From: Planctomycetaceae bacterium
GTDB taxonomy: Bacteria; Planctomycetota; Planctomycetia; Planctomycetales; Planctomycetaceae
Assembly (NCBI GenBank): GCA_002726205.1
Contig: PBSL01000006.1
Location: forward strand, 1-64,000
Length of the DNA: 64,000 bases
Reading direction: 5' to 3'
The notes beneath the pieces were generated by a model, which worked only from the letters and a program-made list of their open reading frames with translations, was not told the DNA's origin and did no database searches. The position numbers and the translations under genes were made by a program. Below are positions 28,272 to 34,768 of this stretch, one piece after another; position 1 is the stretch's first letter; each line of letters opens with the position of its first letter.

Positions 28272-28435
28272 TCTCTCACACTCCAGTTGCCTGCATCTTT
28301 CGATACTAGGATCCAGACGATTCCGCGTGAAAACAAGTGGGGAACTTGAGAGAATGCACGTGCCGGCTGGCCGGACCGATTTCCGGACGGTCCGTCGAAT
28401 CCATCACACAACCGATTGCGACTCAAGGAGCCGCC

Positions 28436-30043
28436 ATGTTTTCGATCAATCGCCGCAGTCTGCTGCTCGGCATCCTTTCGATGGGCCTTGGCGTTCTTTC
28501 CGGCAGCCTGGTTCCCGCGGATCTGGTGGCTGGCCAACTGCATCGCTCGTCGGGACGGATTGCCAAGGGAACAACCTGGGAGACCCCCTATTACGAGATC
28601 CGCGCCGATGCAACCGGCCCCACGGTGATGATCGTTGGCGGAGTCCACGGTAACGAACCCGCCGGCGCCTATGCTGCCGAACAGATCCGCCACTGGTCGA
28701 TTGGCCGGGGGACACTGATCGTGCTCCCTTGCGCCAATCGTCCCGGCCGCGCCGCGAACACCCGTTATCTGCCGAATCAGCCGATGAGCGATCGCGACCT
28801 GAATCGCAACTTTCCCAGCAAGAGCCGGCCTTCCCTCCGGGGCAGCATGGCCGCCGCGATCTGGGAACTCACGCTGAAAGTCAAACCCGACTGGGTACTT
28901 GATCTGCACGAGGGTTACGAATTCAACGTCAGCCACAAACCCCCGAAAGGCAAGAAGAGATCGGTTGGCACCAGCCTGATCTACCTGCGATCCGAGGCCA
29001 ATCGGCCACTGGTCAATCGGCTGCTCAAGACGGTCAACCAGACGATCACCGACACGGATCGCCGCTTCGTCCCGTTGGGAAGGGGACCGGTCGAAGGCAG
29101 CTGGGTCCGTGCCTGCCTCCGCGAGTTGAAAATCCCGGGGATGATTCTGGAAACAACGTTCAAAGACCAACCGCTGTCTCTGCGTGCTCGCCAGCACCGC
29201 CTGCTGGTCAACGAGATTCTCGACTCGCTGAAAATGCTCGAAGAATCCCAGGTCCCGACGCTCGTCGATCCGGCTGCCCGGAAATTTACCGTCGGCATCT
29301 TCGATGGGCCCGGTGCCTCCTCCGGGGGCGTCCAGCGGTTCATCAAACTGATCGGCAAGGAGGCGGACATGCAGTGTTGTGCGCTCGGGCCCGAAGACAT
29401 CACACCCGGCATTCTCGACCAATTCAATGTCGTCCTGTTTCCCGGGGGCAGTGGTTCGCGACAGGGGCGTGCGATCGGCCAGCGGGGTCGTGGTGCCGTT
29501 CGCAAATTTATCGCCAGCGGGGGAGGTTGCGTGGGGGTCTGCGCCGGAGCCTACCTGTGCTCGGCCTACTACCCGTGGTCACTGAAAGTCATCGACACGG
29601 CCGTCTTTACCGGGTCCCGCGAGATCAAAGGCGTCGGCCGCAAGCAAATGTGGTATCGCGGAAAATCCACCAGCGTCCAGATCGAATTGACCGCCGACGG
29701 CAAAAAGTTCTTCACCGGCTTGCCGGCCAGCAATGCGGTCCGTTACCACAACGGCCCCATCGTCTCGGCGATGTGGACCGGTTGGAATGACCCCCTGTTG
29801 CCCGACTACACCGTGCTGGCTCATTTTCGCACCGAAACCGGTCTCTATCCCCCACAAGAGGGGACAATGATCAACACGCCGGCGATCGTGGCCGCCCCGT
29901 TTGGCCGTGGACGCGTCGTCTCGATCAGTCCTCACCCCGAATCGACACCCGGTTTACAGGAAATGATCGGGTTCTCGATCCGCTGGACCCGCAAGCATTC
30001 CGCCCCAAAACCCCCAGGTCCCCGGACACCTCAGTCCCGATAG
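28436..30043 (+). CDS. Fusion of an M14-type (aspartoacylase-like) peptidase with a GATase1-like domain
   Basis: 535 residues from ATG 28436, with AAGGAG ten bases upstream; the leader is Tat/Sec-like (INRRSLLLGILSMGLGVL). Residues about 55-260 are an M14/succinylglutamate desuccinylase-like zinc peptidase: H71-GNE74 in GGVHGNEPAGAY, DRDLNRNFP and VLDLHEGYEF. From about 280 a class I glutamine-amidotransferase-like/BPL_N domain follows (VVLFPGGSGSRQG, GCVGVCAGAYLC, with a Cys in the nucleophile elbow, and FGRGRVVSISPHPE). The pair resembles amidohydrolase plus ligase chemistry, but its substrate is unknown. This order is unusual. Confidence 0.8.
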   Translation: MFSINRRSLLLGILSMGLGVLSGSLVPADLVAGQLHRSSGRIAKGTTWETPYYEIRADATGPTVMIVGGVHGNEPAGAYAAEQIRHWSIGRGTLIVLPCANRPGRAANTRYLPNQPMSDRDLNRNFPSKSRPSLRGSMAAAIWELTLKVKPDWVLDLHEGYEFNVSHKPPKGKKRSVGTSLIYLRSEANRPLVNRLLKTVNQTITDTDRRFVPLGRGPVEGSWVRACLRELKIPGMILETTFKDQPLSLRARQHRLLVNEILDSLKMLEESQVPTLVDPAARKFTVGIFDGPGASSGGVQRFIKLIGKEADMQCCALGPEDITPGILDQFNVVLFPGGSGSRQGRAIGQRGRGAVRKFIASGGGCVGVCAGAYLCSAYYPWSLKVIDTAVFTGSREIKGVGRKQMWYRGKSTSVQIELTADGKKFFTGLPASNAVRYHNGPIVSAMWTGWNDPLLPDYTVLAHFRTETGLYPPQEGTMINTPAIVAAPFGRGRVVSISPHPESTPGLQEMIGFSIRWTRKHSAPKPPGPRTPQSR

Positions 30044-30075: not shown

Positions 30076-32238
30076 TCATCCTATGCCGAGTGCCCCGCAT
30101 CCCTGGTAGACGACCAGCGCTGCCACGTAGGCCATCATCGTCATGTAGAACAACTGCAGGGCGGCCCACTTCCAGGAACCAGTTTCCTTGCGGGTGATCA
30201 CCTGCGTTGGCAGTCACTGCATCGCCAGCACAAAAAAGACCAACAGGCTCAATCCGGTCCGGATCGTAAACGTCGGCGTTCCATCGGCTCGCTTCTGTCG
30301 CCGCAACGTCTCGACGAGACTCTTCTGGTCCTCAGCCGAGTCGTCACCGATGCCGTACATGATCGCCAGTGTCGACACGATGACCTCGCGCGCTGCAAAA
30401 GAACTGATCACGCCAACATTAATTCGCCAATCAAATCCCAGCGGTTCAAAGACTGGTTCCACGAAACGTCCCAGGCGTCCGGCGAACGAGTAGGCCAACC
30501 TCGCCTGCGAAAGTTCTCTTTGAACATCGGCAGGCAACACCTCCGCTGCCTGCCTGGCCGTATCCAGTCGCACCGCCAACTCCCCCGGGAGTTCGTCGTC
30601 GGGGATCGAGGGGTAGGTTGCCAACCCCCACAGGATCACTGATATCAGCAGAATCACGCTCCCGGCCTGCCGCACGAACAACACGCCCCGTTCGAAAACC
30701 GTCCACAGCGCATTCCGCAGGCTCGGCAAACGATAGGGCGGCAACTCGATCACCAGCGGAATCGCTTCCCCTTTCAGGATCGTCTTCTTCAGGCACAACG
30801 CCGAAAACAGGGCCGCCCCAATGCCCAGCACGTACGCCCCGACAAAGAGCAGGGCCGCCGACAATGGCGACTCGCTGAAGAGCAGGGCGGCAATCATCGA
30901 ATAAATCGGAAGACGGGCCGAGCACGTCAGCAAGGGCAGCACCAGGATCGTCACCAACCGGTCGCGCCAGTCCGGAATCACCCGGGCCGCCATGATTCCG
31001 GGAATCGCACAGGCGTGGGCCGACAGCATCGGGACAAACGCTTTTCCAGGTAGCCCCACCAGTCGCATCAAGCGTTCCATCACGAATGCACCGCGGGCCA
31101 TGTATCCGCTTTGCTCCAGCAGTGAAATGAAGAAGAACAGAATGCAGATCTGCGGCAGGAAGATCACGACCCCGCCGACGCCGCCGATCACCCCGTCAAC
31201 CAACAGGCTCTGGAACTCTGCCGCAGGCAACAGGCCCAGCAGAATCGAGACGATCGCCGCCGCGCCAAGACTCCTGCTGGTCCAGGCAATTCCTGCCGCT
31301 CGAAAGGCCACCGCCCCCACACCCATCGTGATTGTCGCGGCCAGCCCGAACCACAAGCCGGGCCGCAGGTCATCATCGGGAAAAGATCCCGCGACGACGC
31401 TTGCCAATTCGGCAAATCCCCGATCCACCAGCGTCATCGGCACGTCGGCCAACGAGAAAATCAGGTAGAAGAACCCAATCATTACCAGCAGAAAAGCAAT
31501 CAATCCGCCCAGCGGATTGACCAGGACACGATCGAGCGCAGCGGAACGTCGACCGTGTGACGACGGAGTGTCCACACACTCAGCACTAACCTGCCCCGCC
31601 CATTCGTACCTCGCGGAAAACAGGCAACCAGCACAGCCTTCCGTGCAAGAGACGTGTTCCTTCGGTGCACCATCCAATAACACGTCGCCCACGGCTTTTC
31701 TCAGCAGCGAAAGCCCCGAACCGGTCCTTGAGCTCACCGCCACCACAGGGCATTTCAAGAGCGTTGCCAGACGTTCCACCTCGATCGAAATCGAGGCGTC
31801 CTCAGCGGCATCGATCATGTTCAAAGCGACAACCGTCGGCAGGCGCAAGTCAACAATCTCGCTGACAAGAAACAGATTCCTCTCAACATTTGTCGCGTCC
31901 ACGACAACAAGCACGGCGTCGGGCACAGCCTCGTTCTCGCCGGCTCCCCGCAAGACACTCGCAGCCAGTTCCTCTTCAGGACTCAACGCATCGAGGCTGT
32001 AGAGACCGGGAAGATCGACCAGCTGTGCCGTTGTGCTTTCCAGTTCGAGAGGTCCACGTCGGACATCGATGGTGCTGCCTGGATAATTGGCCGTCTTGGC
32101 CCGCAGGCCTGTCAGCGAGTTGAACAGCGACGTCTTGCCCGTATTCGGGTTCCCGACCAGTACGACGCGTGGAGCTGAAGCGACCTCTTCGGCGCGAGGG
32201 ATCTCGAGGTTGTCGGGAACTGCCATGTTCGTCGTCAT
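30076..32238 (-). CDS. feoB: Ferrous iron transporter FeoB with in-frame TGA (candidate selenocysteine)
   Basis: 720 residues if the TGA at 30214-30216 (codon 675) is read as an amino acid, 674 if not. The GTPase is complete: G1 GNPNTGKTS, G3 DLPG, G4 NMID. Two Gate (nucleoside-recognition) blocks and the central FeoB_C region follow (IFLPQICILFFFISLLEQSG, LMRLVGLPGKAF, CARLPIYSMIAAL). The TGA follows LVFFVLAMQ; related FeoB proteins have Cys here (AMQC). After it the same frame continues for 45 codons (LPTQVITRKETGSWKW, QLFYMTMMAYVAALVVYQG) to a stop at 30076, the usual C-terminus. It imports Fe(II) using GTP. Start ATG 32238 follows a purine-rich run; ATG 32226 is possible. It lies 7 bp after feoA. 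Confidence 0.85.
30190..30205 (-). promoter_or_regulatory. SECIS-like hairpin downstream of the feoB TGA (weak)
   Basis: Reading the minus strand, GC, a mismatch and GGT pair with ACC, a mismatch and GC around a GATC loop (loop at 30196-30199). The loop begins with G, as bacterial SECIS loops do. It starts 14 bases after the TGA, slightly nearer than the commonly used 16-37 base range. Five base pairs with one internal mismatch is modest, so this could be chance. Confidence 0.3.
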
Positions 32239-32245
32239 CCCCCCT

Positions 32246-32494
32246 CTAGTCAGAAACAGGCTCTGGCCCACTTTCTCTGAGCTGAGAGACCAACACCCGT
32301 GACGCCAATTTGCGGGAGATCCCTAATCTTGCGCCAACCACAACCAGCACCATCGGGTCACCCGGTTGGATCACGTCGATCTGACGGCCGGGGCAAATCC
32401 CCAGTCGCTTCAGACGCACAACCTCGGCTCCGTCCCCTGTAAGGGACTCGCATACGACCGGTCCACATCGACAAGTTGACAGTTCGGCAGACAC
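32246..32494 (-). CDS. feoA: FeoA-type protein
   Basis: 82 residues, starting at GTG 32494; the frame is open further upstream but has no better start. LKRLGICPGRQIDVIQPGDP and VVVGARLGISRKLASRVLV match the SH3-like FeoA fold, which supports FeoB in Fe(II) uptake. The N-terminus is unusually Cys-rich (STCRCGPVVC), with one more Cys in GICPG, and could bind iron or a cluster. It is directly upstream of feoB in one operon. No Shine-Dalgarno is evident, and no Fur-type box was seen upstream. Confidence 0.85.
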   Translation of the reverse strand: MSAELSTCRCGPVVCESLTGDGAEVVRLKRLGICPGRQIDVIQPGDPMVLVVVGARLGISRKLASRVLVSQLRESGPEPVSD

Positions 32495-32863: not shown

Positions 32864-33325
32864 ATGATCCGAGTAAAAAACATTCTTGTCCCGACTGACT
32901 TCAGTGAACACAGCGACACGGCAGTCCTGTACGGCTGTGAACTGGCATCCCGATTCGATGCCGACCTTCACCTGCTGCACGTCGTCGAATTCACTCCGCT
33001 GATGTACGGGGAAGGAGCATATTTCGCACCAGAGACCGAAGCCCAGCTCGAACACGACGCCCAGCAACTGATCGGTGACATACCGGCACCAGAGTGGCGC
33101 AGCCGGATCCCCAATGTCACCCGGTCGACGCTGCGTGGCCATCCGCTTCCGGAAATTTGTCGTTACGCAAAGGAACAGAACATCGATCTGATCATCCTCG
33201 GTACCCACGGACGAGGCGCTATCGCTCACGTCCTGCTCGGCAGTGTGGCCGAAAAGGTCGTTCGCAAGGCTCCCTGTCCCGTACTGACTGTCCACCACCC
33301 GGAAAGAGAGTTTGTCATGCCCTAG
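32864..33325 (+). CDS. Universal stress protein (UspA family)
   Basis: 153 residues from ATG 32864, preceded by a perfect AAGGAGG at five bases. The fold runs VKNILVPTDFSEHSDTAV at the start to LIILGTHGRGAIAHVLLGS, then AEKVVRKAPCPVLTV. The G-x2-G-x9-G-S/T loop that binds ATP is present (GTHGRGAIAHVLLGS), so this is the ATP-binding subgroup. It acts in the cytoplasm in stress or dormancy; it is likely induced by iron or oxidative stress given its neighbours, but this is inference. In-frame sequence upstream of 32864 was excluded because of the strong ribosome binding site. Confidence 0.9.
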   Translation: MIRVKNILVPTDFSEHSDTAVLYGCELASRFDADLHLLHVVEFTPLMYGEGAYFAPETEAQLEHDAQQLIGDIPAPEWRSRIPNVTRSTLRGHPLPEICRYAKEQNIDLIILGTHGRGAIAHVLLGSVAEKVVRKAPCPVLTVHHPEREFVMP

Positions 33326-33622: not shown

Positions 33623-34768
33623 ATGTTGCGTTACCTGTTGTGCCTGGTTTCGTTGCTACTGACACCAACCGTATCGTCAGCACAGGACCGGACCGCCAAC
33701 CGGATCCTCACGAAGTACCGCGCCACCCGGCCGTCGTCGAAGGAACTGGCGATGTACCGGCTCGACTGGAGCCCCTCCTACGGCGAGGCTCTCCGCCGCG
33801 CTGCCGCCGAGAGCCGTCCGGTGTTCCTTGTCATCATTCACGCACGATATGGTGACATTGCCTCGGGACATTGCTGAGCAACCGCAACGCAGGTCCGTGG
33901 GACCTCGCTGCTGGACCCGGCAGTCATCAAACAGTTGCAGCCGTATATCGTGACGTCGTGGCACGGTCATCGGAACGACCCGGACATCCCCGAGGCTGTC
34001 AGGTCCGTCTGGAAGCGGAAGTTCGACCCGGCCCACACCCCTCGCGAACGCCGACAGAGCAACGTCGACCTTGCGATTCTCACCTCTGCCGGTCAGCTCG
34101 TACACTGGTTCGACGGTTTCCACTACCGTGGTTCCGGCCGTCGAGAATCACTTGCCCAATACACGGCCCGGGAACTGCAAACGGGGACCAGTTGGTTGCG
34201 GCTCGTGGAGACACCGCCCCGGCTCGTCAAGAAACCGACACTCCAACTGCCCGACCTCATCCAGTCCCGTGGTGTGCGGGTGATCGTCCGCCTGGAAGAC
34301 GACCGAATGCCCGCTTACCGGGCACCGGTTGTAGAAGCCGTGCCGCTGGAATCCGCAGACTGGAAACCGCTCGCCTGGCGCGACCAACGACACGTCGTCG
34401 ACGCCTCGGAACTCCAGAAATGGCTCTCCCAGGTCTATCCACCCGGCATCATGGAAAGAACCAATCCTCAGACCAAGCGGGTCTACAAGATTCGCTCTGT
34501 CGCCGGAACACTGACGCTGACCCCCGCCGGAACCAACGCAACACATCGCTACGCGGTGGCCAGTGGATCGATCCGACTGACTGATGAGGGTGATGACAAT
34601 TTCCGTTTCGAGGGAAGACTGGATCTCGTCCTGACCTACAATCGCGACGCGCCCGAAGTGGTTTCACTGCGCGGCGTTTTTGACGGAATCTACCCGCGGG
34701 TCGAACGCCGGACGGGACGCACCCGACAACTTCCGCTCCAGGCAGTCTTTGAGTCTCGCCCACAATGA
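33623..34768 (+). CDS. Exported thioredoxin-like protein with in-frame TGA after Cys (candidate selenoprotein, Cys-Sec)
   Basis: 381 residues if the TGA at 33875-33877 (codon 85) is decoded. Start ATG 33623 with GAGGAAG six bases upstream; signal peptide to about 21 (PTVSSAQ). Residues 60-85 resemble a thioredoxin-like strand and active-site loop: AAAESRPVFLVIIHARYG then DIASGHC-TGA. Past the TGA the same frame runs on for 296 codons to 34768 without another stop (ATATQVRGTSLLDPAVIKQL, YIVTSWHG), with a beta-rich C-terminal half. A Cys followed by the recoded residue would form an adjacent redox pair. Without decoding the product would be 84 residues, and the remainder would have no good start. 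Confidence 0.8.
33884..33911 (+). promoter_or_regulatory. Bacterial SECIS-like hairpin in the thioredoxin-like gene
   Basis: AGGTCC (33891-33896) pairs perfectly with GGACCT (33900-33905) around a GTG loop. A lower stem, GCAACG with CGCTGC, extends it to about 11 pairs with one mismatch and one bulge. The loop begins 19 bases after the TGA and starts with G then T, matching the accepted bacterial SECIS rules on distance and loop. SelB recognises such a hairpin when UGA is decoded as selenocysteine. Confidence 0.6.

Follow-up and report, generated by a model that had tools for sequence, protein, structure and literature searches.

The gene at positions 33623–34768 of the forward strand of the stretch analyzed here (64,000 nucleotides from a Planctomycetaceae bacterium, referred to below as the window) very probably encodes a selenoprotein of a so far undescribed family, in which an in-frame TGA is read as selenocysteine (Sec). 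Decoding of this UGA as Sec is strongly supported by comparison of sequences; no protein or expression data are available. According to the best reading, the family comprises exported thioredoxin-like oxidoreductases, so far found only in Sec form, with a center of adjacent Cys and Sec and a C-terminal β domain. The features of the gene are as follows.

33623–34768, + strand: predicted selenoprotein gene; 381 residues, Sec at codon 85, stop TGA 34766–34768
33623–33682, + strand: predicted signal peptide, residues 1–20, ending SSA-Q; from the sequence and the hydrophobic N-termini of aligned members
33740–34213, + strand: thioredoxin-like domain, residues 40–197, with Sec85 at the N-terminus of helix 86–95; from an AlphaFold2 model
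33872–33874, + strand: Cys84 codon, neighbor of Sec, kept in all aligned members but three (Thr in L027–L029)
33875–33877, + strand: in-frame TGA, putative Sec85, invariant within the family
33891–33905, + strand: bSECIS-like hairpin AGGTCC-GTG-GGACCT with 6 pairs and a 3-nt loop; by the rules of PMC13188914
34229–34765, + strand: C-terminal domain, residues 203–381, with long antiparallel β strands in a barrel-like arrangement; no close solved relative

Re-reading of the frame agrees with the preliminary description, which had named the TGA, placed directly after the Cys84 codon (TGC), as the sole interruption of a 381-codon frame followed by about 296 clean codons; exactly 296 sense codons separate it from the second TGA. 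The latter is judged from the alignment to be the true stop, since the homologues terminate near the same point with varied stop codons. The frame begins with an ATG (33623–33625), 5 nt upstream of which is located GAGGAAG, and the N-terminus of the product resembles a signal peptide (MLRYLLCLVSLLLTPTVSSAQ). When the TGA is read as Sec, the translation of 381 residues carries the site SGHC-U-ATATQVRGTSL. An open run of 296 codons would arise by chance at the local base composition with a probability of about 9e-5. The decisive argument for a real frame is its conservation across homologues: in each of the 33 homologous frames that were aligned, no in-frame stop other than this TGA occurs, the TGA falls in one shared column, and substitution by codon position is protein-like both upstream (0.30/0.23/0.62) and downstream (0.37/0.29/0.63) of it.

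A FeoB-type ferrous iron transporter (30214–32271, − strand) and a universal stress protein (32864–33325, + strand) are encoded just upstream of the gene, and an AstE/AspA-like deacylase-type protein (28337–30043, + strand) lies 3.6 kb upstream. In two homologous loci (L045 and L046), an AstE/AspA-like relative is found directly upstream, 13–18 nt from the selenoprotein gene; as a functional link this neighbor was rejected, the evidence being too weak. Comparison of the gene neighborhoods of homologous loci revealed no conserved operon. Sulfatases follow the gene in several of these loci, and they are a very common family in planctomycetes.

Relatives of the gene are present in 14 of 197 related genomes, its own included, as well as at 23 loci of the GTDB collection. 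The homologues, with identities of 21–60%, come from Planctomycetota and from metagenome-assembled genomes (MAGs) labelled Verrucomicrobia/Kiritimatiellia, and the sample is drawn mostly from MAGs. Homologues had been expected to carry Cys or TGA at this codon if Sec is encoded, and they do: TGA occupies the site in every homologue that covers it (34 loci with distinct site windows), and Cys is found at the aligned site in distant relatives, for example L077 and L089–L094. The Sec position is never a sense codon in the family, and no Cys orthologue was found within the family, so that the usual Sec/Cys pairing is seen in the distant relatives only. When 392 genomes of the phylum were searched with a profile, more members came to light, again with TGA. 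Among 388 genomes of the phylum of G557, a MAG titled Verrucomicrobiales, profile A1 detected the family in G557 alone; the family is therefore rare in that phylum.

The distribution of the family follows that of selA. All 14 carriers have a selA match over the cut-off, as opposed to 85 of the 183 genomes without the gene (p 4e-5 by Fisher test). A selB match over the cut-off is present in 19 of the 23 GTDB carrier genomes; the remaining four, each a draft MAG or a single-cell genome, include some with fragments. The genome that contains the window, a draft of 4.86 Mb in 76 contigs, has all of the genes that the preliminary description had suggested looking for, namely selA, selB, selC, and selD. 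Its tRNA-Sec scores 69.6 bits, over the gathering score, and is called by ARAGORN as tRNA-SeC with anticodon TCA. The match to selA (510 bits) adjoins that to selB (354 bits), and selD (347 bits) has its own in-frame TGA within the GUAGKL motif, a usual feature of that gene. Outside the window, the same genome contains two other TGA-interrupted genes (L128:1106–1753, + strand, and L129:1001–1582, − strand), whose motifs are FRCERU-QAC and FRCETU-PEC; one or the other sits on the contig that carries selA and selB. By their sequences, including a CxxCH motif, both probably belong to NF041199, the Trx7/PDZ (seleno)protein family. Since selA, selB, selD, and tRNA-Sec are accompanied by these two additional TGA-bearing genes of the Trx7/PDZ type, the organism, as far as sequence can tell, makes selenoproteins.

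The hairpin AGGTCC/GGACCT begins 13 nt past the TGA, with 19 nt from the TGA to the GTG loop. Bacterial SECIS (bSECIS) rules call for a loop of 3–9 nt, a stem of 4–16 bp, a G among the first two loop nucleotides, a distance of 16–37 nt from the UGA, and a minimum free energy of at most −7.5 kcal/mol (PMC13188914), and they are satisfied here by the GUG loop, the 6-bp stem, and the spacing of 19 nt; the folding energy of a 48-nt stretch is −16.9 kcal/mol. A single hairpin of such quality is nothing out of the ordinary (median p of 0.09 when compared with synonymous re-draws), and the folding energy after the TGA is only marginally below that of synonymous shuffles (mean z −0.79). As this free-energy test is weak, the case for a functional RNA element was built on synonymous conservation across sequences. 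Of 172 columns scored in 23 close homologues, only Q90 (CAG), V91 (GTC), G93 (GGG), and T94 (ACC) are fully synonymously frozen; these codons form the stem and represent the strongest cluster of frozen codons in the gene. The loop codon, R92, is exclusively CGT or CGG in 23 of 23 sequences, whereas the commonest Arg codon in these genes is CGC; the loop thus begins with G-U or G-G, as the SECIS model requires. The naive probability of 1e-10 overstates the significance of this pattern, since the sequences are related. Where the stem has changed naturally, from ACC to GCC or ATC, the pairing is retained as G-U, and farther clades have different stems, such as GCGAGGG-AGTT-CTCTCGC or GGGCTC-CGTGC-GGGCCC, with a G within loop positions 1–2. 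A scan of the gene region against Rfam gave no match, as expected, because bSECIS elements vary.

Other explanations of the TGA can be weighed against these observations. TGA is one base away from TGC, TGT, and TGG, and the genome is a draft in many contigs, so that one might suspect an ordinary Cys or Trp codon that was misread in sequencing or recently mutated to a stop; however, this possibility has already been refuted by the homologues, every one of which that covers the site has TGA, in independent assemblies and in frames without any other stop, and it can be regarded as virtually ruled out. Translation beyond the TGA, which is plain from the frame, might instead reflect readthrough without Sec, due either to genome-wide reassignment of TGA, for example to Trp, or to leakiness. 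The same gene terminates in TGA, however, which therefore is not a general sense codon here, and the complete Sec machinery, the fit of the hairpin and its frozen codons to SECIS, the location of the residue where a thioredoxin fold has its redox center, and the co-occurrence of the gene with selA all speak against such readthrough, making it very unlikely. That the region encodes two products, a protein of 84 residues and another started separately downstream, is suggested by the presence past the TGA of a TTG-started ORF of 277 amino acids (33935–34768). A stop at the TGA would, however, split the thioredoxin domain between strand 67–72 and helix 86–95, and the codons between the TGA and the TTG show conservation at the protein level; we consider this arrangement extremely improbable, although a truncated by-product is possible when selenium is short.

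The model of the selenoprotein obtained with AlphaFold2 from the 33-row alignment is confident (pLDDT 89.7) and bears out the placement of the TGA, proposed earlier from the sequence alone, at the active site of a thioredoxin-like fold. The model fulfils the criterion for a thioredoxin-like fold, a thioredoxin core whose redox residue opens the active-site helix: Sec85 stands at the N-terminus of that helix. The closest solved structures (Z 9 to 11.6) are a Bacteroides cytochrome-biogenesis-related domain, AGR2/AGR3, DsbH, and DsbD-gamma, the best VIA match having Z 11.6 over 126 residues with rmsd 3.5; a sequence search of solved structures gave marginal matches only. Since the first Cys of distant CxxC relatives (L097, L098, L100, and L101) aligns with Sec85, the latter is predicted to hold the position of the attacking Cys of CxxC, with Ala88 in the resolving position. 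The motif is C-U-A-T-A, and all 33 rows lack a Cys at +3, so that the CxxC (or UxxC/CxxU) criterion is not met. The β domain is modeled with a pLDDT of 91.9, and structure comparison yielded no clear solved relative for it. Its best VIA matches are outer-membrane barrels with Z of 8 or less and low identity, too little for a fold or a location to be assigned.

As had been supposed initially, no described selenoprotein family matches, a statement that now holds against Pfam, NCBIfam, and the 119 prokaryotic selenoprotein families catalogued in 2026 (PMC13188914). The window protein has no match in Pfam at E up to 1 or in NCBIfam at E up to 10, and a thioredoxin-like family of the SGHCU type is absent from the catalogue. 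The motifs of the family found no match in the papers searched, and overlap with the planctomycete selenoprotein candidates of PMC4807772 is not excluded. Judged in this way, the family appears to lie outside those described families that could be compared. Thioredoxin_7 gives weak matches in six of the 33 members (best E 0.002), none of them being the window protein. Together with DsbH, DsbD-gamma, and AGR2/AGR3, it shares with the window protein the modeled fold (VIA Z about 9–11.6 over 110–136 residues) and the alignment of the first Cys of CxxC with Sec85; the window protein differs in having no CxxC, an adjacent Cys-Sec pair in its place, and an additional C-terminal β domain.

The VPGUxxT families (NF041382 and NF041383) have in common with the window protein a thioredoxin-like domain whose single Sec takes the place of the first Cys of CxxC. 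From the clan considered here, distant members match these models weakly (best E about 1e-4), as they do those of Trx7/PDZ, whereas the window protein has no match at E up to 10, short of the family cut-off, and the position of the gene is not among the NF041382 matches listed for its genome. The sole member here over the VPGUxxT cut-off, L109, has EPGU-ATC where the window protein has SGHCU-ATATQVRG; it lacks a Cys before Sec and differs in its C-terminal half. Trx7/PDZ (NF041199), the Thioredoxin_7-like selenoprotein family with two likely members in the same genome (compared as truncated sequences), is characterized by CExUxxC with a resolving Cys, followed by CxxCH, and likewise fails to match the window protein, whether with E up to 10 or above its cut-off. 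A Cys immediately preceding Sec is also found in KCU-star (NF033934), SaoC (NF040734), and HgcA (NF040863) (PMC13188914). The window protein differs from these three in having no NCBIfam sequence match. To our knowledge, and in part from the catalogue, none of the listed families with Cys-Sec is thioredoxin-like with this architecture.

The Cys-Sec redox center put forward in the preliminary description stands, at the level of sequence evidence and with one refinement: Sec is invariant and Cys84 is present in most members, but Thr replaces it in one clade (L027–L029). The protein itself is unobserved. As Cys84 is kept in most, not all, members, the alignment identifies Sec as the invariant center and Cys84 as its frequent partner. 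In many members, the mature protein would contain no Cys or Sec residues besides these two. We propose that SelB and Sec-tRNA recognize the hairpin behind the UGA so that Sec is inserted, and that the ribosome continues past the UGA to yield a 381-residue preprotein, which would be exported via its signal peptide, export being inferred from the N-terminus, and would fold into the thioredoxin-like and β domains. Outside the cytoplasm, the selenolate of Sec85 might then attack a disulfide, a peroxide, or a comparable oxidant, giving a selenenyl intermediate that could be resolved by Cys84 through a vicinal Cys-Sec bond or, where Cys84 is Thr, by an outside thiol. We can speculate that the β domain supplies the substrate or fixes the location. 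A vicinal Cys84-Sec85 bond as a resting or catalytic state is plausible and unproven, and it cannot hold throughout the family, as one clade has another residue in place of Cys84. The redox role is inferred from fold and position only, and we lean just slightly toward the mechanism in the form proposed.

A different function is compatible with the same reading of the TGA, as it agrees on Sec and concerns function only: rather than a thiol-disulfide oxidoreductase, the selenoprotein might be, for example, a Sec peroxidase, or its Sec might serve as a ligand for a metal or for a reactive small molecule. The lack of a resolving Cys of CxxC, the clade with Thr in place of Cys84, and the export of a protein whose C-terminal domain is unknown would fit such a role, whereas the location of Sec at the attacking position of folds of the Thioredoxin_7/DsbH/DsbD-gamma type and the retention of the neighboring Cys in most members argue against it. 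We regard this alternative as tenable and somewhat doubtful.

Beyond the family as defined here, distant relatives in many planctomycete genomes (L074–L088 and L103–L108) have a TGA in the same place within other motifs (GCTU-NNGVRGRQ, GGLU-SAGH, and EHCU-LGG). They are present in several copies in some genomes, and none of those scanned has a Pfam or NCBIfam assignment above the cut-off. At L074 (+ strand, about 3–1457), a paralogue adjoining a gene with the TGA carries Asp where Sec would stand (GRT-D-GGS) and is possibly an inactive copy; L099 likewise has Asp there. It seems fairly probable that the gene described here forms one branch of a large clan of thioredoxin-like proteins that Planctomycetota export, that depend on Sec, and that annotation has mostly missed. 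In place of CxxC, this clan would work with a single Sec or with Cys next to Sec, its motifs including SGHCU-ATATQVRG, GHTU-ANVDHVRG, GCTU-NNGVRGRQ, GGLU-SAGHSxRAVTL, GRCU-GGA, and EHCU-LGG. Unlike most known selenoproteins, some branches of this clan appear to have Sec throughout.

Standard annotation cuts such genes short or calls them pseudogenes. A family that appears to exist only in Sec form, and whose thioredoxin fold carries Cys-Sec at the attacking position, would add testable redox chemistry and would hint at why some planctomycetes retain a selenium system. To judge from the wider clan, the selenoproteins of the planctomycete phylum seem to be considerably under-counted.
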